From Acidobacteriota bacterium (lineage in GTDB: Bacteria; Acidobacteriota; UBA4820; DSQY01), in assembly GCA_021778515.1 (NCBI GenBank), contig JAJYCJ010000013.1, forward strand, positions 1 to 47,662: a DNA stretch of 47,662 nucleotides, written 5' to 3'. Positions 2,661 to 47,644 of the stretch are shown here, piece after piece. Numbering within the stretch: position 1 is the first letter of the stretch; each line of letters opens with the position of its first letter. The position numbers and the translations under genes were made by a program. A model generated the notes under the pieces. The model made no database searches. It was not told where the DNA came from and saw only the letters and a list, made by a program, of their open reading frames with translations.

Positions 2661-3904
2661 AGGTCACCATCCTCACGCTGGGCTGCAAACTGAACCAGGC
2701 CGATTCGGCGCGGGTGGCCGGGCGGATCCGGTCCCGCTGCGAGGAGGCCCGGCGTCCCGAAGAGGCCGACCTGATCCTGTTGAACACCTGCACCGTGACC
2801 CAAAAGGCCGACCGTGAGGCGAGGCAGGCTCTCCGGAGCCTGCGAAGGCGCAACCCGCACGCCCAGCTCGCGGTCATGGGCTGCTCGGCGCGGCGGGACC
2901 AGGCGCCCTACCGGGCCATGCCGGAGGTGGACGAGGTCCTGGCCACCGACCAGGATCTCGTGACCTTTCTGGACACCCTCGCCGGTTCGGAGGGGGGGCG
3001 AGGGCACGCCTGCGTCCCCCATTTCGGAGACCGCACGAGGGCCTTTCTCAAGATCCAGGAGGGGTGCAACTTCCCCTGCGCCTACTGCATCATCCCCTCG
3101 GTGCGCGGCCCCTCCCGCTCCGTGCCAGTGGAAGTGGTGGTGGAGGATTTTCGGGCCCTACTGGATGTGGGGTACCGGGAGGTGGTCCTCACCGGCGTGA
3201 ACACCGGGGAATACGGCAAGGACACCGGCTTCCGGGGAGGGCTGGTGGGCCTGATGGAGCGGCTCCTGGCGGTGCCGGGGCGGTACCGCATCCGCCTCAA
3301 CTCCCTCGAACCCCGGGCGCTCACGCCGGAAATCCGGTCGCTCATGCGACGGGAGGCGGCCCTCGCCAAGCACCTCCAGGTCCCCCTTCAGAGCGGCTCC
3401 GATCCCGTTCTGGGGGCCATGCGCCGCAACTACCGGGCGGGCTTCTACGAGGAGCAGCTCCGGGCACTGGCGGAGGAGGTGCCGGGCGTGGGCATCGGCG
3501 CCGACGTGCTGGTGGGGTTTCCCACGGAGAGCCCGGCCGATTTCGACGCGACCCTGGCCCTCCTGGAGCGCTCCCCCGTCGCCTTCGTCCACGCCTTCAC
3601 CTATTCGCCCAGGCCGGGAACCGCCGCGGCCGCCATGCCCGGCATCCCACCGCGGGAGGCCGCCGAGAGGACCCGCCGCGTCCGGGCCCTCGGGGAGCGC
3701 AAGAGCCTCGCCTTCGCGGCCCGGTTCGTGGGCCGACCCCTGCCCGCCCTGACCCTGGCCCCGGCGTCGGATCGGGGCCGGGCGCTCACGGACAACTTCC
3801 TCCACGTCGGCCTTCCCCGCCCAGAGGAGGCGAATCGCTTCGTGACGGTGGCCCTCCGGTCGGCCGGGAGAGAGGGACTCGCAGCAGAGCTCGTGGAGGC
3901 CTGA
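2657..3904 (+). CDS. mtaB: tRNA N6-threonylcarbamoyladenosine methylthiotransferase (MtaB-type, radical SAM)
   Basis: A 415-residue MiaB-family enzyme that adds a methylthio group to t6A37 of tRNAs reading ANN codons. The N-terminal UPF0004 domain supplies Cys10, Cys45 and Cys76 for the auxiliary [4Fe-4S] cluster. The radical-SAM cluster motif CNFPCAYC gives Cys137, Cys141 and Cys144. A C-terminal TRAM-like segment starts near residue 350. The opening LGCKLNQ and the overall length favour MtaB over MiaB or RimO. Translation apparently starts at CTG (2657), since no standard start codon lies upstream of the conserved N-terminus. It overlaps the TPR gene by 3 nt and ends 28 nt from the convergent kinase gene. 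Confidence 0.93.
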   Translation: MKVTILTLGCKLNQADSARVAGRIRSRCEEARRPEEADLILLNTCTVTQKADREARQALRSLRRRNPHAQLAVMGCSARRDQAPYRAMPEVDEVLATDQDLVTFLDTLAGSEGGRGHACVPHFGDRTRAFLKIQEGCNFPCAYCIIPSVRGPSRSVPVEVVVEDFRALLDVGYREVVLTGVNTGEYGKDTGFRGGLVGLMERLLAVPGRYRIRLNSLEPRALTPEIRSLMRREAALAKHLQVPLQSGSDPVLGAMRRNYRAGFYEEQLRALAEEVPGVGIGADVLVGFPTESPADFDATLALLERSPVAFVHAFTYSPRPGTAAAAMPGIPPREAAERTRRVRALGERKSLAFAARFVGRPLPALTLAPASDRGRALTDNFLHVGLPRPEEANRFVTVALRSAGREGLAAELVEA

Positions 3905-33840: not shown

Positions 33841-34797
33841 ATGATCGAAGTGAAGGACCTGGTCAAGAGGTATGGCGACACCGCGGCCGTCAATCACGTC
33901 TCCTTCCAAGTCCACCCCGGCGAAATCGTGGGTTTTCTTGGACCCAACGGGGCCGGCAAGTCCACCACCCTTCGGATCATGACGGGTTTTCTCCCCCCGA
34001 CGGCCGGCGAGGTCTTCGTCGGCGACCATTCGGCGCAGGAGGACACCAAGGCGGTGCGCCGGCTCATCGGCTATCTGCCCGAGAACAACCCCCTCTACGA
34101 GGACTTGCGCGTCCAGGAATATCTCGCCTTCCGGGCAGCCCTCAAGGGCATTCCCGGTAAGGCGCGCAAGGGGCGCATCCAAGAGGTCCTCGAAGCCTGC
34201 GAAGTGACAGAGGTCAAGGACCGGATCATCGGCGCCTGCTCGAAGGGCTTTCGCCAGAGGATAGGCCTGGCCGACGCGCTCCTGGCCAATCCGCCGGTGC
34301 TGATCCTGGATGAGCCGACCGTGGGGCTGGATCCGGTTCAGATCGTGCACACCCGCTCGCTGATCAAGACCCTGAGCGCCGACCACACGGTGATCCTCTC
34401 CACCCACATCCTGCCGGAGGTGGAGGCCATCTGCTCCCGGGCCCTGATCCTCCACCACGGCGCCCTGCTCTACGACGGTCCCGTCTCCGAGCTTCGCCAG
34501 GGACTCGGGGGCGAGGCCGGCGGGCTGCTGTGCACCGTCTCGGCGGATGCGGAGGCGGCGAGGCGGTGCCTGGAAGGAGTGGAAGGGGTGGAGCGAGTGG
34601 AGCGCCTGGCGACGGCCGAAGGCCCGCCCCGTTTCCACATTCTGACGGCGCAAGGCGTTGATGTGCGGGAGGGCCTCTTCAGGGCCTGCGCCGCGGCCGG
34701 GCTCCCGCTTCTAGAGCTGACCGTCCAGCAGGTCTCGCTGGAGGAGGCCTTCCTCTCCATCATGACCCAGGAGAACAGCTCGGAGGTGCTCTCATGA
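33841..34797 (+). CDS. ABC transporter ATP-binding protein (GldA/NatA-like)
   Basis: A 318-residue ABC ATPase. Walker A is GPNGAGKST near residue 38, the signature is CSKGFRQRIGLADAL (the SKGxRQR form common in GldA-like ATPases) and Walker B is VLILDEPTVGLDPVQ, followed by STHILPEVEAIC (switch His). The extra C-terminal 100 residues are typical of ABC-2 exporters of this type. It powers the permease encoded directly downstream, whose ATG overlaps its stop. The ATG has GGAGGTC upstream. Confidence 0.94.
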   Translation: MIEVKDLVKRYGDTAAVNHVSFQVHPGEIVGFLGPNGAGKSTTLRIMTGFLPPTAGEVFVGDHSAQEDTKAVRRLIGYLPENNPLYEDLRVQEYLAFRAALKGIPGKARKGRIQEVLEACEVTEVKDRIIGACSKGFRQRIGLADALLANPPVLILDEPTVGLDPVQIVHTRSLIKTLSADHTVILSTHILPEVEAICSRALILHHGALLYDGPVSELRQGLGGEAGGLLCTVSADAEAARRCLEGVEGVERVERLATAEGPPRFHILTAQGVDVREGLFRACAAAGLPLLELTVQQVSLEEAFLSIMTQENSSEVLS

Positions 34798-35534
34798 GAG
34801 CGGTGATGGCCATCGCCCGTAAGGAATTGACGAGCTACTTCTTTGCCCCCATGGCCTACATCGTGATCGCCGCCTTTCTCCTCATGAACGGATTCATCTT
34901 CTCCGTGATCCTGGCGGCCCTGAGCCAGCCCGGGGCCTTCTCGGCCCAGCCCATGCTCCTCTTCTTCGGAGGGACGACCTTCTTCTGGATCTTCATGATC
35001 GTCATGACGCCCGTCATCACCATGAAGCTGGGCGCCGAGGAGCGAAAAACCGGGACCATCGAGACCCTCATGACGGCTCCCGTCTCCGATCTGGAGGTGG
35101 TGCTCGGCAAGTACCTGGGCGCCATGGCCCTCTACGCGGCGGCCTGGCTGCCCACGGTCTTCTACGTCTGGGCGCTCACGGCTTACTCGAAGGTGGACGT
35201 GGGCCCCGTGATTTCGGGCTATCTGGGCGTGCTGCTGGTGGGCATGTTCTTCATCGCCATCGGCCTGTTTACGAGCCTGGTCTCCAAGAACCAGGTGGTG
35301 GCGGCCATGCTGTGCTTCGCCATCCTGCTCCTGCTGATCCTGATCTCCATCCTCACCTTCCTGGTGACCGATCCTTTCTGGAAGCCCGTCCTTCAATACG
35401 TGGATCTCTGGTCGATCATGCAGGGCTTCGCCAAGGGGGTGGTGGACAGCCGCTCGGTGGTCTACTGCCTGTCGGGAACCGCCCTTTTCCTGGCCCTCGG
35501 GTATCAGGCCATGCAGACTCGGCGTTGGAGATAG
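34794..35534 (+). CDS. ABC-2 type permease (GldF-like)
   Basis: A 246-residue inner-membrane protein with six hydrophobic segments. It begins with the ABC-2 permease start (MAIARKELTSYFFAPMAYIVIAAFL) and has the cytoplasmic EERKTGTIETLMTAPVSDLEVVLGKYLG segment that couples to the ATPase. GldF-type permeases pair with a GldA ATPase and a GldG auxiliary protein, the same order as here. In Bacteroidota the trio supports gliding; in other phyla its role is not known. Confidence 0.93.
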   Translation: MRAVMAIARKELTSYFFAPMAYIVIAAFLLMNGFIFSVILAALSQPGAFSAQPMLLFFGGTTFFWIFMIVMTPVITMKLGAEERKTGTIETLMTAPVSDLEVVLGKYLGAMALYAAAWLPTVFYVWALTAYSKVDVGPVISGYLGVLLVGMFFIAIGLFTSLVSKNQVVAAMLCFAILLLLILISILTFLVTDPFWKPVLQYVDLWSIMQGFAKGVVDSRSVVYCLSGTALFLALGYQAMQTRRWR

Positions 35535-35538
35535 CCCC

Positions 35539-36987
35539 ATGAAGAAAAGACTCCTGCAAGAGACCAACTGGAGCGTCTTCCTGGTGCTCCTGGCCGCTCT
35601 GTTCCTGATCGTGAACTACCTGGCCTTCCGCCACTACCACCGCTGGGACCTCACCGCCAGCCGCTCCTTCACCATTTCTCAAGAGACCAAGAAGGTGCTC
35701 GGAGATCTCAAGGAGCCGCTCAAGGTCGTGGTCTTTCTGGCCCCCAACGACCCCCTTTACGAGAGGGTGAAGGATCTGCTGGACGGCTACGCCGCCGCCA
35801 GCTCCCGGGTGCAGGTGGAAACCATCGATCCCGACCGGCAGCGCGCCAGGATGGAGGCCCTCGCCCAGCAGTACAAGGTCTCCATGGCCAACGTGGTGGT
35901 CTTCGCCCTCGGGGGCAACAGCAAGTACGTCGAGAAGGACCAGATGGTGGATTACGACTTCTCCAGCGCGGGCCTCGGCGGCCAGCCCGCCATCAAGAGC
36001 TTCAAGGCCGAGGCGGCCTTCACCAACGCCATCTTCAGCCTGGAGCACCCCGAGACCCCGGTGATCTACTTCACCACCGGCCACGGCGAGCGAGACGCCG
36101 GCGCCCAGGGAGAGGGCATCAGCCTTCTCAAGGCCCGCCTGTCGAAGGAGGGGGCCAAGGTCCTGGAATGGGCCAGCCTGGGCAAGACCGAAGTGCCCGC
36201 GGACGCCAGCATGCTGGTCATCGCGGGGCCCAAGAGCCCCTTCCTTCCGCAGGAGGCCCAGGTCATCGACCAGTACCTCCAAAAGGGGGGAAAGGCCCTC
36301 TTCCTTCTGGATCCCGTCATCGTGAGCGGAAAGCCTCCGACCTTCGGCTCCACGGGCCTCGGGGCGACCCTCCAGGAATGGGGCATCACGCTCGGGCACG
36401 ACATCGCGGTGGATCCGGCCGCGTCCGTGCCCTACCTCGGAGCGCAGACCTTCTTCGCCCGGGCCGTGGGGGAGGAGCCCGTGGTGAAGGACCTGGTCCA
36501 GAACAAGCTGCCCGTCCTCCTCAGCCTGGCCGAGTCTCTCACCCTCGGCACCCCCAACAACAAGGCCTATCACTGTGAGGCTCTCCTGCAGTCCTCGCCC
36601 CAGTCGTGGGGCATGCGGGATCTCGCCCATATCGACAAGGGCGTCGAAAAGAAGCCGACGGACGCGCAGGGTCCCCTGACCATGGCCGCTGCTGTGAGTT
36701 CCCAGAACGCCGCCGACCAGTGCCGCTTGGTGGTGGTGGGCGACTCCGACCTGGCGAGCGACGGGCTCCTGCAGACGGGGGCGGGGAACCTCCTCTTCTG
36801 CCTCAACTCCATTCACTGGCTTCTCTCCCAGGCCAGCCGGCTGGCCATTCCGCCCAAGAGCGAGGTGGAGACGCACCTGAGCCTGACCGCCTCGCAGTCC
36901 AATTTCCTCTTCATCCTCTTCGTCGTGATCCTTCCCGGACTGGTCGTCGCGGCGGGGGTGTTCGCCTACCTGCGCCGGCGGAGGTGA
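35539..36987 (+). CDS. GldG-like auxiliary component of an ABC transporter
   Basis: A 482-residue protein anchored by an N-terminal transmembrane helix (about 13-32) and a C-terminal one (about 455-476, FLFILFVVILPGLVVAAGVFAYL). The large periplasmic part resembles the GldG/ABC-type uncharacterised transport domain (PF09822): YHRWDLTASRSFTISQETKKVL, then VYFTTGHGERD-type IYFTTGHGERDAG and VVGDSDLASDG. It lies 4 nt after the permease gene and belongs to the same operon. Confidence 0.9.
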   Translation: MKKRLLQETNWSVFLVLLAALFLIVNYLAFRHYHRWDLTASRSFTISQETKKVLGDLKEPLKVVVFLAPNDPLYERVKDLLDGYAAASSRVQVETIDPDRQRARMEALAQQYKVSMANVVVFALGGNSKYVEKDQMVDYDFSSAGLGGQPAIKSFKAEAAFTNAIFSLEHPETPVIYFTTGHGERDAGAQGEGISLLKARLSKEGAKVLEWASLGKTEVPADASMLVIAGPKSPFLPQEAQVIDQYLQKGGKALFLLDPVIVSGKPPTFGSTGLGATLQEWGITLGHDIAVDPAASVPYLGAQTFFARAVGEEPVVKDLVQNKLPVLLSLAESLTLGTPNNKAYHCEALLQSSPQSWGMRDLAHIDKGVEKKPTDAQGPLTMAAAVSSQNAADQCRLVVVGDSDLASDGLLQTGAGNLLFCLNSIHWLLSQASRLAIPPKSEVETHLSLTASQSNFLFILFVVILPGLVVAAGVFAYLRRRR

Positions 36988-36993
36988 GGAGCC

Positions 36994-38334
36994 ATGAAGA
37001 GATCCACGTGGATCCTGCTGGCCATGGTGGCGCTTTTGGCCTGCTTCATCGCGCTCTGGGAGCACAAGCAGCCCAGCACCGAACAGATCGCCGAGCGGCG
37101 CAACCGGCTCGTGGACTTCAAGCCCGAGCAGGTCACCCAGCTGAGCCGCAGCGGACAGGGGGCGGTCTCCCTGGTCAAAGAAAAGGGAGGTGGCTGGCGA
37201 GTGAGCCAGCCCGTTGATGACGCCGCCGACCGGTACGGCGTGGAGGGTTTCCTGGACCGCGTCTCCAAGGCGACGGTCCTGCGCTGGGTGGAACCCACCG
37301 CATCCGAGGCGCAGCTGGGCCTCTCTCCGCCCAGGGCCGTATGGACCCTGAAGGGGCTGACGAAGCCGGTGGTCCTTGACGTGGGGGCCAAGGCGCCCCT
37401 GGCCGAAGGGCTCTACGTGCGGATCGGCGGCCGGACCGCCCTGGTTCCGCCGGACCTCGAAAGCCTGCTCCTCGAGCCCGTGTCCAGCTTCCGCTCCAAG
37501 GACCTCCTCACGGTCGGAACGGCCGACATCCAGTCCCTGAAGGTCGTGCGCGGTGGAGCACAGACCCTCGCCCTCGCGCGCGACCCCACCGGAGGATGGA
37601 CCGTCACCGCCCCCTTCACCGATCGCGGGGATACCAACCAGATCGAGAATCTCCTCGACGATATTTCCCTATGCCCCGTGGACCAATACGTTTCGGACAA
37701 GCCGGCCGACCTGTCCACCTACGGCCTCGATCCGCCCTCCGCGGACATTCTGGTGACGGCCAAGGGCCAGACCATCGAGGCCAAGCTCGGGAAAGCCGTC
37801 CCCGGTGGCGCACCCGAGAAGCGGCTGGTGTACGCCTGGGTCTCCGACCGCCCTTCGGTCATGGCAGTCTCCCTCAACTCGCTGAAGTCCTTGGACCAGA
37901 GTCCGGAGAAGCTGCGCTCCATGAGCCTCATCTCGCATGACTTTTACGACGTCCAGGAGATCGGCGTCTCGGGCCTCTACACCCTCGCATTGAGGCGGGA
38001 CGAGAAGCTGGGCTGGGTGTTCACGCAGCCGAAGCTCCCACCCAAGGGGGCCCAAGCCAGCATCCTGGCGGATGGCCTCTCCTCCCTTCGGGGGGAGCGC
38101 GCCGTGCCTCTCACCGAGCCCGGTAAAATGGGGCTCTCCCCGCCCGCCTTGACGATCACCTTTCAGGGCAAAGGGTTCTCGGACCGCGTGGAGCTGGGCC
38201 GGGATTCCTCGGGCACCTGGTATGCCCACCCCGCCAAGCGCAGCGTGGCCCTCGTTCTTCCCGAGCAGGCCTGGGGCAAGATCGTGGCCTCCTTCACCTT
38301 GGTGCAGGGGGCAACGAAGGCGGGGCCGAAGTGA
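36994..38334 (+). CDS. DUF4340 membrane-anchored protein
   Basis: A 446-residue protein with one N-terminal membrane helix (residues 6-22) and a periplasmic region of repeated beta-rich modules. It contains DUF4340-type segments (GWTVTAPFTDRGDTNQIENLLDDIS, then YGLDPPSADILVTAKGQ). DUF4340 proteins commonly follow GldG-like genes and are taken to be part of the same envelope machine. ATG 36994 has GAGGTGAGGAG upstream. Its stop overlaps the GTG of the next gene. Confidence 0.88.
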   Translation: MKRSTWILLAMVALLACFIALWEHKQPSTEQIAERRNRLVDFKPEQVTQLSRSGQGAVSLVKEKGGGWRVSQPVDDAADRYGVEGFLDRVSKATVLRWVEPTASEAQLGLSPPRAVWTLKGLTKPVVLDVGAKAPLAEGLYVRIGGRTALVPPDLESLLLEPVSSFRSKDLLTVGTADIQSLKVVRGGAQTLALARDPTGGWTVTAPFTDRGDTNQIENLLDDISLCPVDQYVSDKPADLSTYGLDPPSADILVTAKGQTIEAKLGKAVPGGAPEKRLVYAWVSDRPSVMAVSLNSLKSLDQSPEKLRSMSLISHDFYDVQEIGVSGLYTLALRRDEKLGWVFTQPKLPPKGAQASILADGLSSLRGERAVPLTEPGKMGLSPPALTITFQGKGFSDRVELGRDSSGTWYAHPAKRSVALVLPEQAWGKIVASFTLVQGATKAGPK

Positions 38335-44070: not shown

Positions 44071-45447
44071 TCATCGGGGCTTCCACTGGATCTCTTGGTA
44101 GAAGACCGGGCTGGGTTCGTGGATCTCCTGCATCAGCTCGTCGCGGAACGTGGGGAGAAAGGTGTCCCACCGCTGGCATTGGGTGCAGTAGTCCCTCCAC
44201 TCGGGAGAGGGCTGGTGGCAGGAGGTGCACTCGTAGTTGAATTCGAAGGGATCCAAAATCCGTATGACTTCCCGGTAGTGGTCGCAGGCCTTGGCAAGGT
44301 CTCCGCGCCTCTCCCTCACCCGTCCCAGGTAATACTGGAGAAGGCCCGACTGACCGACGTTGCCCTCGACCTCCCTGAGGATGTGCTCAGCCCGGTCGAG
44401 GATCTCTAGCCGGTAGAAGAACCGCCCGAGCAGGAACTTGGGCAGGACCTTCCGATCCGTGGACGCGATGAGGGCTTGGTACTGCTGGATGGCGCCCTCC
44501 GGGTCCCCCTTTTCGAGATAGAGCTGCTCCATGGCCAGAAGGCAGGTTGGGAATGCATTCTTGCGGTATCCGTCGATGTAGGTCTCCACCGCCTTCTGCT
44601 CCTCGCCGTTCAAGAGGTAGGCTTCGGCGAGCTTCAGGTAGGTGGCCTGAAACGCCGGATACTTCTTTCTGACCTTTTCCAGCTGGGCGATGGCCTCGCC
44701 GTGCTTGTCCTGGAGCAGGAGATCCACCCCGATCTGGTACAGCAGGCCGGGCGTGAACGGAGCGTCCGCGACCCGCTCCTCCTCCAGAACCCGCGCCTCT
44801 CCGATGTGGTCCTGGATCTCGAGGGCCCGGCGCCAATTGCCTTCTTTGATGTACAGGTCCCTCAGCATCCGCATGCCCTTGAGGGCCCGGCGGGGCTGAA
44901 TGCGGATGATTTCCAGCAGGTACCGCTTGGCCTCCTCGTGGTCCTGGAGCGCCAGGGCATCTTCGGTGAGCGCATAGAGCGTCGGGATGTCCTCCGGGTG
45001 CTCGTTGAGAGCCTCCCGGTGGTAGGTCAGCGCCTCTTGGGGACGGTCGGCGGAGCGGAGGGCATCGCCCAGCTTGAGGAGCGCGGGCAGATAGTTGGGC
45101 TGAGACTCCAGGGCGTGTTGGAAGTGGTTGATGGCTTCCAGCGGCCGGCTGCCCAGGACGGCGTCGAGGCCCTTGAGATAGTGCTCCTCGGCCGCCCTCT
45201 CGCTCTGACGCCTCAGATCCGTCAGCCAGCGCCGCACCACCTGGGCCAACCCGCTGGCCGCGATCCAAACGGCGAAGCTGAGGAAGCCGGCCAGGAGGGC
45301 GACCGTCAGCACCCACGCCATGGGGACTCGGAGCCCGAAGAAGATGAAGGGCTCTCTCAGGACCTCCACGTTCCTGGAGACGAGTCCGAGCAAGAGGGCC
45401 ATCAACAGGATCAGCGTCCCGGTGATGAGGGCGGTTTTCAGGCGCAT
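44071..45447 (-). CDS. LapA/LapB-like fusion: membrane-anchored TPR protein with rubredoxin-type zinc site
   Basis: A 458-residue inner-membrane protein. Two N-terminal membrane helices (about 5-25 and 43-67) enclose VSRNVEVLREPFIFFGLRVP, the arrangement of LapA (DUF1049/PF06305). A charged helix and then about nine TPR units (about 88-390) follow. The end carries CTSC (407-410) and CTQC (421-424), the rubredoxin-like zinc site of LapB/YciM. LapB controls LPS synthesis through FtsH and LpxC in E. coli, where LapA and LapB are separate neighbours. Here both appear in one chain. The gene lies between the DksA-like and PmbA-like genes. Confidence 0.82.
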   Translation of the reverse strand: MRLKTALITGTLILLMALLLGLVSRNVEVLREPFIFFGLRVPMAWVLTVALLAGFLSFAVWIAASGLAQVVRRWLTDLRRQSERAAEEHYLKGLDAVLGSRPLEAINHFQHALESQPNYLPALLKLGDALRSADRPQEALTYHREALNEHPEDIPTLYALTEDALALQDHEEAKRYLLEIIRIQPRRALKGMRMLRDLYIKEGNWRRALEIQDHIGEARVLEEERVADAPFTPGLLYQIGVDLLLQDKHGEAIAQLEKVRKKYPAFQATYLKLAEAYLLNGEEQKAVETYIDGYRKNAFPTCLLAMEQLYLEKGDPEGAIQQYQALIASTDRKVLPKFLLGRFFYRLEILDRAEHILREVEGNVGQSGLLQYYLGRVRERRGDLAKACDHYREVIRILDPFEFNYECTSCHQPSPEWRDYCTQCQRWDTFLPTFRDELMQEIHEPSPVFYQEIQWKPR

Positions 45448-45457
45448 GCCGATTCGG

Positions 45458-45817
45458 TCACTCGATGAGCCCGCGTTCCTGCAAATCCTGGCACTCGAGG
45501 CAGTGGCGGGCCCAGGGAACGGCCTCGAGGCGCTTTCGCTGGATGGGCTTGCCGCAGTGGACGCACTCCCCGTAGCCTCCCTCCGTTACGATGACCCGGA
45601 GCGCCTCGTCAATCCGCCGCATGATCTTCCGGTCCGCGTCCGAGAGGGAGTACCAGAACTCCTTGTTGTAGTTGGCGGAGGCCTCGTCGGCCGAGTCCAG
45701 CGCTCCGTCCGCCCCCGCGTCCCCGCTCCTGGAGAGCTTATCGCGGTAGGCGCTCTGGAGTTCCGCCCTCTTGTCCAGGAGCAGCTTCTCGAAGTGCTTC
45801 AGGGTCTTCTTGTCCAT
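45458..45817 (-). CDS. DksA/TraR-type C4 zinc-finger protein
   Basis: A 119-residue transcription factor that binds the RNA polymerase secondary channel or a related partner. A helical hairpin (residues 1-75, with the acidic DGALDSADEASA near the tip region) leads to the zinc finger CVHC...CLEC with GKPIQRKRLEAVPWARH between. It is shorter than DksA (151 in E. coli). It lies 17 nt after rlmH and 10 nt before the LapB-like gene. Confidence 0.92.
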   Translation of the reverse strand: MDKKTLKHFEKLLLDKRAELQSAYRDKLSRSGDAGADGALDSADEASANYNKEFWYSLSDADRKIMRRIDEALRVIVTEGGYGECVHCGKPIQRKRLEAVPWARHCLECQDLQERGLIE

Positions 45818-45834: not shown

Positions 45835-46296
45835 CTATTTGGAGTAGGCCCTTCCCGTGCAGTGGGCGAAGGCTCGATAGACTTGTTCGGCGAGGACCAG
45901 CGTGGCCATGTCGTGAGTGAAGGTCATGGGAGAGAGGCTCAGCTGGATCTCGGCGAGATCGAGGGCCTCACGGCCCAGGCCGTGGGGGCCGCCCACGAGA
46001 AAGGCCACGCGCTTGCCGGCGTCCTTCTGGCGCTGCAGGAGGCAGGCGAAGCCGTCGCTGTCCATCGTCCGGCCTCCGGGGTCCAGAGCCACGGCCAAGC
46101 AGCCCTTGGGAATCCGTCGGACCAGGAAGCTCGCCTCTTCCGTCTTGCACGCCTGGGGCTCCTTCTTGCGGGAGGACCGAACGGGCTCGACGCGGAACCT
46201 CCACTCCCCTCCGACCATCTTCACGTAACGCTCCACGGTGCGCCCGATCCCCTCGTCCGAGATCCTTCCCACGTGCAACAGCAAGATCTCCCACAT
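45835..46296 (-). CDS. rlmH: 23S rRNA (pseudouridine1915-N3)-methyltransferase RlmH
   Basis: A 153-residue SPOUT methyltransferase that modifies helix 69 of 23S rRNA. The SAM-binding knot is FLVGGPHGLGREAL and the C-terminal LSPMTFTHDMATLVLAEQVYRAF is the family end; ALDPGGRTMDSDGFA precedes them. Length matches E. coli RlmH (155). It follows the degenerate activator gene by 22 nt. RsfS and RlmH are commonly neighbours; here one gene separates them. Confidence 0.96.
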   Translation of the reverse strand: MWEILLLHVGRISDEGIGRTVERYVKMVGGEWRFRVEPVRSSRKKEPQACKTEEASFLVRRIPKGCLAVALDPGGRTMDSDGFACLLQRQKDAGKRVAFLVGGPHGLGREALDLAEIQLSLSPMTFTHDMATLVLAEQVYRAFAHCTGRAYSK

Positions 46297-46318: not shown

Positions 46319-47242
46319 CTATCTGACTTCGCCCCTCAAATGACTCCAGAGGGCCTTGCGGCTGATTCCCAACCACTTCGCGGCCTGGGTCCGGTTGCCG
46401 CCTACGCGGGCCAGGACCTCGTGCATGTATGCGTCCCGAAGTTCCGACAGCGTGAGGCGCTGGCGGATCGCGGTCTCCAGGCGCTCGCCTCCGCCCCAGA
46501 AGGCCGGCGGCAGATCCGCCGGGGTGAGGGGGTCCGCCCCCACCATGGCCAAGTGTTCCATCCGGTGGGCGAGCTCCCGGCAGTTCCCCGGCCAGGCGTG
46601 GCTCTTCAGGGCGTCGATGAGCTCCTGGGACATGCGGGGTTTCTCGCGGTGGTTCCGGCGGCAGGTTTGGGCGAGGAAGAAGTCGGCGAGGATCGGGATG
46701 TCTCCGGGCCGCTGGGCGAGCGGCGGGATCTCGATCCGGATGACGTCCAGCCGGTAGAGAAGGTCGGGCCGGAGGATTCCCCGCTGGACGAGGAGCTCGG
46801 GGGAGTCCAGGAAGGTCGCGCACAGGCGGGCCAGGACCTGAATGGGGCGGCCACCACCCACCCGTTCCACCTGGCGGGTTTCGAGGACTCGCAGCAGGGC
46901 GGCCTGCTGATGGCTCGGCAGTGCCTCCACGCCCGCCATGCAGAGCGTCCCCTCTCCGGCCCTCTCGAAGAGACCCGGCCTCTCCGCCACGTCCGTCGCG
47001 GTTCCCGAATGGACGCCGAAGAGTTCGGCCTCCAGAAGGGTCTCGGGTGCCGCCCCGGTGTGCCATTCCAAAAAGGGTCCCCGACGGGGACCCCAGTGAT
47101 GGATCCATTGGGCCAGGTGGCTCTTCCCGCATCCCGTCGGTCCCACGAGGAGCACGGGGCTGGATTCGCGCGCCACCCGCCGGGCCAACTGCATCACCGC
47201 CCGGAAGGCCGGGTCCCGGCCCACCGTTCGGGGAGGAGTCAC
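46319..47242 (-). CDS. Sigma-54-activator-like protein, degenerate AAA+ domain with Fis-type HTH
   Basis: A 307-residue protein made of an AAA+ domain of the bacterial enhancer-binding type and a C-terminal Fis-like HTH (about 265-305, GGNRTQAAKWLGISRKALWSHLR). There is no N-terminal receiver or sensor domain. Walker A is intact (GPTGCGKS, 34-41). The GAFTGA loop after ELFG is GTATDV (80-85), and the Walker B acidic pair is lost (GTLCMAG, where DE would be Ala103-Gly104). The R-finger region LRPDLLYRLDV is kept. It probably cannot remodel sigma-54 holoenzyme. Start: GTG 47242 overlaps the rsfS stop (GTGA); a longer frame would overlap rsfS more. Confidence 0.85.
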   Translation of the reverse strand: MTPPRTVGRDPAFRAVMQLARRVARESSPVLLVGPTGCGKSHLAQWIHHWGPRRGPFLEWHTGAAPETLLEAELFGVHSGTATDVAERPGLFERAGEGTLCMAGVEALPSHQQAALLRVLETRQVERVGGGRPIQVLARLCATFLDSPELLVQRGILRPDLLYRLDVIRIEIPPLAQRPGDIPILADFFLAQTCRRNHREKPRMSQELIDALKSHAWPGNCRELAHRMEHLAMVGADPLTPADLPPAFWGGGERLETAIRQRLTLSELRDAYMHEVLARVGGNRTQAAKWLGISRKALWSHLRGEVR

Positions 47243-47586
47243 GGCGCTACCCGAGGGGCGTCCATCCAGATGCGTTCCAGGCTGTAAAATTCGCGCTTGT
47301 CCTCCAGCATCAGGTGGATGATGAAGGAGCCGTAGTCGAGGAGCACCCACTGGCCGTGGGAGAGGCCTTCCACGTGGTGGGGCCGGAGTTGGAACTCCTC
47401 CCGGAGGGCATCCTGCAGGTCGCGGGCCAGAGCCTGAACCTGCCGGGTATTGGTGCCGTGGGCTATGGCGAAGTAGTCGGTCATGCTCGTCAACTTGCGA
47501 AGGTCCAGGATGACGGGGTCCAGAGCCTTCCCATCCTCCAGGATTCTCACGATCCCCGCCAGGACTTCTCTCTCATCAGCCTTCAC
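47239..47586 (-). CDS. rsfS: Ribosomal silencing factor RsfS
   Basis: A 115-residue protein that binds L14 and blocks subunit joining under starvation. It shows ILDLRKLTSMTDYFAIAHGTNTRQVQALA, VEGLSHGQWVLLDYGSFIIHLM and the final YSLERIW, all typical. I chose GTG 47586, which has AGGAGG 5 nt upstream and gives the usual length; GTG 47625 would add 13 residues and has a weaker AAGGG site. It heads the minus-strand operon. Its TGA overlaps the next gene. Confidence 0.95.
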   Translation of the reverse strand: MKADEREVLAGIVRILEDGKALDPVILDLRKLTSMTDYFAIAHGTNTRQVQALARDLQDALREEFQLRPHHVEGLSHGQWVLLDYGSFIIHLMLEDKREFYSLERIWMDAPRVAP

Positions 47587-47591
47587 CGGTT

Positions 47592-47597
47592 CCTCCT
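47592..47597 (-). promoter_or_regulatory. Ribosome binding site deciding the rsfS start
   Basis: AGGAGG on the minus strand, 5 nt from GTG 47586. This favours the shorter RsfS over one beginning at GTG 47625. Confidence 0.6.
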
Positions 47598-47644
47598 CCC
47601 CGACGGCGCGCCTGGATTCATCCACGATAGAGCCCTTCCTTCCG

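Follow-up and report, generated by a model that had tools for sequence, protein, structure and literature searches.

A sigma-54-activator homologue in an Acidobacteriota rsfS-rlmH operon has lost GAFTGA and the Walker B acids and probably regulates genes by a simpler route

How does a relative of the sigma-54 activators act when both its GAFTGA loop and the acidic residues of its Walker B motif are gone? The question is raised by a gene in positions 1 to 47,662 of contig JAJYCJ010000013.1 from an Acidobacteriota bacterium (the whole 47,662-nucleotide stretch is called the window here). The original prediction held that the encoded protein hydrolyses ATP poorly, does not activate sigma-54 and works by a different route, and that the gene is not dead. 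The gene and its neighbours lie as follows:

46319..47242, minus strand: sigma-54-activator-like AAA+/Fis-HTH protein of 307 aa with a GTG start
47239..47625, minus strand: rsfS, ribosomal silencing factor, the upstream neighbour (TIGR00090, above cut-off)
45835..46296, minus strand: rlmH-type SPOUT methyltransferase, the downstream neighbour (PF02590)
45458..45817, minus strand: DksA/TraR-type zinc-finger protein (PF01258)
44071..45447, minus strand: LapB-like TPR protein with C-terminal Cys pairs (LapB models matched below cut-off)

The 307-aa protein is a homologue of the AAA+ sigma-54-activator superfamily, consisting of a Sigma54_activat domain (PF00158, E 1.6e-39), a lid (PF25601) and a Fis-type HTH (PF02954, E 3.6e-8). 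As predicted, it has no sensor domain, and its gene, part of an operon of the ribosome-assembly/lapB type, is flanked by rsfS and rlmH. The start codon, a GTG at 47242, overlaps the stop of rsfS, and other genomes have the orthologous starts at the equivalent position; a longer start at 47350 was ruled out because these starts match 47242. An AlphaFold2 model from nine sequences (pLDDT 83) had an intact fold, for which Foldseek returned NtrX, ZraR, PspF, FleQ and FlrC, the best match being NtrX of Brucella abortus (PDB 5m7n, 5m7o, 5m7p). With the TyrR equivalog NF008085 (NCBIfam, cut-off 576 bits) the protein scored only 147.8 bits. Its motifs are these:

47120..47143, minus strand: Walker A GPTGCGKS, residues 34-41 (by alignment; the class has GK[S/T], activators usually GKE)
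46988..47005, minus strand: L1 loop GTATDV, residues 80-85, at the GAFTGA position (class pattern GxAT[G/D]V)
46931..46951, minus strand: degenerate Walker B GTLCMAG, residues 98-104, replacing GTLFLDE (by alignment)
46751..46771, minus strand: retained arginine-finger segment RPDLLYR with R158 and R164 (by alignment)
46334..46456, minus strand: Fis-type HTH, residues 263-303 (PF02954), the most conserved part across the orthologous group

The register of GTATDV and GTLCMAG was secured by alignment to NtrC-family and ZraR PDB chains, to 21 activators of the same genome and to orthologues, and translation and alignments together bore out both replacements as first read. The L1 loop is of full length, without any deletion; relatives read GxATGV, and Asp at the fifth position was confined to the window protein and its congener. 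Of the bEBP signatures, the protein thus has neither a GAFTGA with Phe or Tyr and Thr or Ser (it reads GTATDV) nor the Walker B DE (AG stands there). The Walker A Lys (K40), the arginine fingers (R158, R164) and the sensor II Arg (R222) are all present. Lacking a functional GAFTGA while keeping a DNA-binding HTH, the protein in these two respects matches the sigma-70-acting regulators of the TyrR/RcNtrC/VpsR kind, a grouping by function and no clade.

Homologues with the same substitutions at the rsfS-rlmH position, which the prediction had named as a check, occur throughout the window's class. The gene was found in all 13 class genomes, in each by far the best match and an open frame without stops. 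Among nine complete class relatives, the position of the GAFTGA Phe, the residue that contacts sigma-54, was invariably Ala and the position of its last Ala invariably Val (V85 in the window protein). Gly took the place of the Walker B Glu in nine of nine, and the Asp position held S, G, E, V, T or A, never Asp. The resulting class pattern is xGxE, with G104 and E106 invariant; E106, two residues past the lost Glu, might compensate for its loss. The sensor I Thr had become Phe in all nine. K40, R158, R164 and the sensor II R222 were retained by every one of them, in agreement with the claim that Walker A, the arginine-finger segment and the HTH are kept. The residue after the Walker A Lys was Ser or Thr (9/9), whereas 43 of 46 paralogues have Glu.

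Between the window and its congener, dN/dS was 0.11 for the gene, 0.06 for the AAA core and 0.05 for the HTH, the neighbours ranging from 0.05 to 0.31. Because of this low value, and because the same substitutions are fixed class-wide, comparison indicates that the gene is alive and under purifying selection; its presence in 13 genomes and a fixed gene order likewise speak for the earlier view that it is not dead. The order rsfS, the gene, rlmH, dksA and the LapB-like gene held in all class genomes whose contig reaches that far, with rplU, obgE and nadD further upstream. In one class genome (G008; L026, 3335-3426) about 90 bases separate the gene from rsfS, unlike the rest of the class, where the two abut or overlap.

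Beyond the class we drew rsfS regions from 89 more Acidobacteriota genomes, so that the counts describe a sample of the phylum: in 35 of the 89, rsfS had as its same-strand neighbour an activator homologue with a single domain, after which rlmH and dksA mostly came. In a tree that joined 43 syntenic proteins with 46 paralogues, a branch with 100/99 support set all the syntenic ones apart, and among these the window's class formed one 100/100 clade. Because of this separation, the 43 rsfS-linked proteins form one orthologous group, to which rsfS adjacency, the single AAA+/HTH architecture and the supported branch also assign the window protein. Outside Acidobacteriota, the matches in Myxococcales, Anaeromyxobacter and Proteobacteria were canonical, and none stood beside rsfS. 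One rsfS-linked homologue (L134; G117, 2940-3647) does not lie in a single frame, as its relative L130 does, but in two, through a frameshift or an assembly error.

The catalytic Walker B Glu was absent from 27 of the 43 syntenic proteins versus none of the 46 paralogues, with G, Q, L, M, D, N, H or another residue in its place. Parsimony on a tree with masked motif columns, in which many branches are weak, gave about six changes (bootstrap 5-8), of which the well-supported branches alone force two; by this count, the group appears to have dropped the catalytic residue repeatedly, about six times, across the phylum. All 43 retained the Walker A Lys and the sensor II Arg, and every one that could be read had the HTH Arg-Lys pair. 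In four rsfS-linked homologues from other families (L101, L107, L135, L070), the arginine fingers are gone along with the Walker B Glu, and the P-loop and HTH are kept.

Intact GAFTGA and DE motifs occur among syntenic homologues of other classes, such as L033/L149, L071, L074 and L097. Since both motifs survive in L149, L071, L073, L074, L097 and L112, the ancestor of the group was probably canonical. The original prediction had named such homologues as a sign of local decay; they do exist (L033/L149), but decay of that kind is not what they reveal, the loss being old, class-wide and maintained. Comparison gives good support to the prediction that the protein would neither hydrolyse ATP nor activate sigma-54 and would act by a different route.

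Where, then, does constraint on the protein lie? For this gene in G001 and G009, the AAA identity was 0.47 and the ratio of HTH to AAA identity 1.25. In contrast, nine canonical orthologue pairs of the window's genome and G009 had AAA identities of 0.62-0.85 and ratios of 0.51-0.98. HTH identity exceeded AAA identity in 774 of 901 syntenic pairs, and the HTH recognition region was 0.63 identical across the group, as against 0.38 among paralogues. Constraint thus appears to have shifted from the motor to the DNA-binding part, the opposite of canonical orthologues, and this shift suggests a DNA target common to the members of the group.

On balance we favour, with reservation, the reading that a sigma-54 activator has turned into a nucleotide-binding, non-hydrolysing DNA-binding regulator independent of sigma-54, one that probably controls genes by a simpler route than ATP-driven sigma-54 activation. 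A canonical single-domain activator would have entered the rsfS-rlmH operon early in the history of Acidobacteriota, and the activator machinery would have been lost later. To judge by its retained P-loop, its arginine fingers and its sensor II, the protein would bind ATP or ADP without appreciable hydrolysis. The nucleotide and the arginine fingers acting in trans would hold together an oligomer presenting HTH units, which would bind the conserved DNA target and repress or activate a sigma-70-type promoter. It would do so without sigma-54 and without ATP-driven remodelling, in the manner of R. capsulatus NtrC or TyrR/VpsR. Most likely its regulon would have to do with ribosome assembly or the control of growth.

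PspF variants in the Walker B Glu engage with ATP and hardly hydrolyse it, E108Q being a constitutive hexamer (PMC4132715). R. capsulatus NtrC requires the binding of ATP, not its hydrolysis, and works with sigma-70, while VpsR does not require ATP (PMC10274813); TyrR, DhaR and HupR, with altered or deleted GAFTGA, depend on sigma-70 (PMC3162934). Against the nucleotide-binding part of the reading, sensor I and both Walker B acids are gone. A residual link to sigma-54 may also exist, RpoN being encoded in nearly all genomes of the phylum including the window's.

Upstream of rplU, seven class members have TTGACA, a spacer of 17-18 bases and, 22-27 bases ahead of the start codon, a box resembling TATAAT, with no sigma-54 site; this promoter was seen in relatives, the window's own contig ending just upstream of rsfS. 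By this evidence the operon promoter is of the sigma-70 type and conserved in class relatives. No palindrome upstream of rplU was common to the seven class members, and none was conserved in the spacer between rsfS and the gene at 22 loci, where the commonest, GAGC-N1-GCTC, occurred in six loci, three of them near-identical, and was given no weight. Autoregulation through a palindromic operator, considered for both regions, was thus unsupported. The LapB-like protein (44071-45447) has an N-terminal hydrophobic segment and, in the whole class, always comes after dksA. Elsewhere in the window (33841-38334), genes for an ABC transporter ATPase, an ABC-2 permease, ABC_transp_aux (PF09822) and DUF4340 lie in a row that we take to resemble the Gld-type auxiliary ABC transporter clusters.

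Instead of regulating specific promoters, the protein might bind DNA in a structural or nucleoid-type capacity or serve in some way tied to ribosome assembly, but this is unlikely. Such a role would suit an operon of rplU, obgE, nadD, rsfS, rlmH, dksA and a LapB-like gene in which no palindromic operator was found, either ahead of rplU or between rsfS and the gene. However, gene order alone does not show function, and the conservation of the HTH recognition region (0.63 versus 0.38 in paralogues) is what a specific site would lead one to expect.

The same genome offers possible partners. All 21 other activators aligned from it keep DE, so that the Walker B loss is specific to the window gene. 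One of them (L165, G000:C162:54588-55091) has GAFEDA for GAFTGA with DE intact; in another (L171, G000:C124:905-1393) the GAFTGA region is shortened and the Walker A Lys has become Arg (GTGRG) with DE kept, the opposite pattern of loss. Might the window protein join one of the cell's canonical activators in mixed rings, where it would lend its neighbours arginine fingers and block or tune their cycle? We regard such a trans-acting modulator as unlikely. In its favour, the class has lost the protein's own catalytic residues but holds both arginine fingers and the sensor II Arg invariant, the genome has about 21 canonical partners, and PspF rings are reported to remodel DNA even when alternating subunits are defective in hydrolysis (PMC4132715). 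Yet no part is better conserved than the HTH, a sign that the protein binds DNA itself; L070, L101, L107 and L135 lost the arginine fingers and kept the HTH, and no partner is linked to the window gene.

It is very improbable that the protein is still a sigma-54 activator with odd motifs, in which, for example, E106 would replace the Glu and GxATGV would contact sigma-54. RpoN is encoded in the window's genome and was found in 117 of 119 genomes of the phylum; the two without it (G009, G120), considered as a natural test, are incomplete assemblies and hence uninformative, although both have Glu-less versions of the protein. The L1 loop, too, keeps its length and Thr, in relatives also the second Gly, and E106 is class-invariant. 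However, known activators allow little variation at the L1 Phe and Thr (PMC3162934), the window protein has lost Asp, Glu and sensor I alike, and the approximately six Glu changes across the group have no common replacement. The operon promoter is sigma-70-like, and a search of the operon for sigma-54 promoters gave one weak match, below chance expectation. Finally, a decaying gene or assembly error, to which the canonical versions at the same place in other classes (L033/L149, L071, L074, L097) might point, is scarcely credible and already contradicted by 13 genomes with identical substitutions, frames without stops, a dN/dS of 0.11 and an intact HTH and P-loop.

The annotation 'sigma-54-dependent regulator' is probably wrong for the window protein. 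A broader proposal, which we put forward as doubtful, is that regulators embedded in operons across the phylum repeatedly shed the ATPase motor and kept the P-loop and HTH. The version in the window's class would then sense nucleotides, its P-loop having gone back to GKS/T and its catalysis being lost; responding to the cell's ATP/ADP or to some other nucleotide, it would control genes of ribosome assembly from inside their operon. In the library of papers searched we found none on an rsfS-linked activator, none joining Acidobacteriota with GAFTGA, and no described orthologous group that traces an intact activator to a motor-less regulator at one fixed genomic place. Members of the present group stand at different natural stages: intact; Glu lost; GAFTDA; arginine fingers lost; and, in the window's class, Asp, Glu, sensor I and the L1 Phe lost. 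These stages make it testable which parts of an AAA+ activator serve DNA-bound regulation rather than remodelling, and they bring to light an unstudied regulator inside the Acidobacteriota obgE-nadD-rsfS-rlmH-dksA operon.

Single activator paralogues that have left sigma-54 are already known. The NtrC proteins of R. capsulatus and Caulobacter are, like the window protein, activator homologues without GAFTGA, and both act at sigma-70 promoters (PMC10274813). In these two, however, part of L1 is deleted and receiver domains are present, whereas the window protein has a full-length L1 and no sensor domain; Caulobacter NtrC also keeps and needs the Walker B Asp, and the window protein has neither Walker B acid. 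Full-length NtrX of Brucella abortus, the closest structural match, differs in having a receiver domain. PspF resembles the window protein in its fold, its AAA+ plus Fis HTH architecture and its lack of a sensor domain, but keeps GAFTGA and DE and activates sigma-54. Most of the set TyrR, DhaR, HupR, VpsR and YplP carry a sensor or receiver domain and control metabolic or surface functions. All five are sigma-54-activator paralogues with GAFTGA altered or deleted, as in the window protein (PMC3162934). Unlike the window group, they have been reported neither in a ribosome-assembly operon nor with a group-wide loss of the catalytic Glu.
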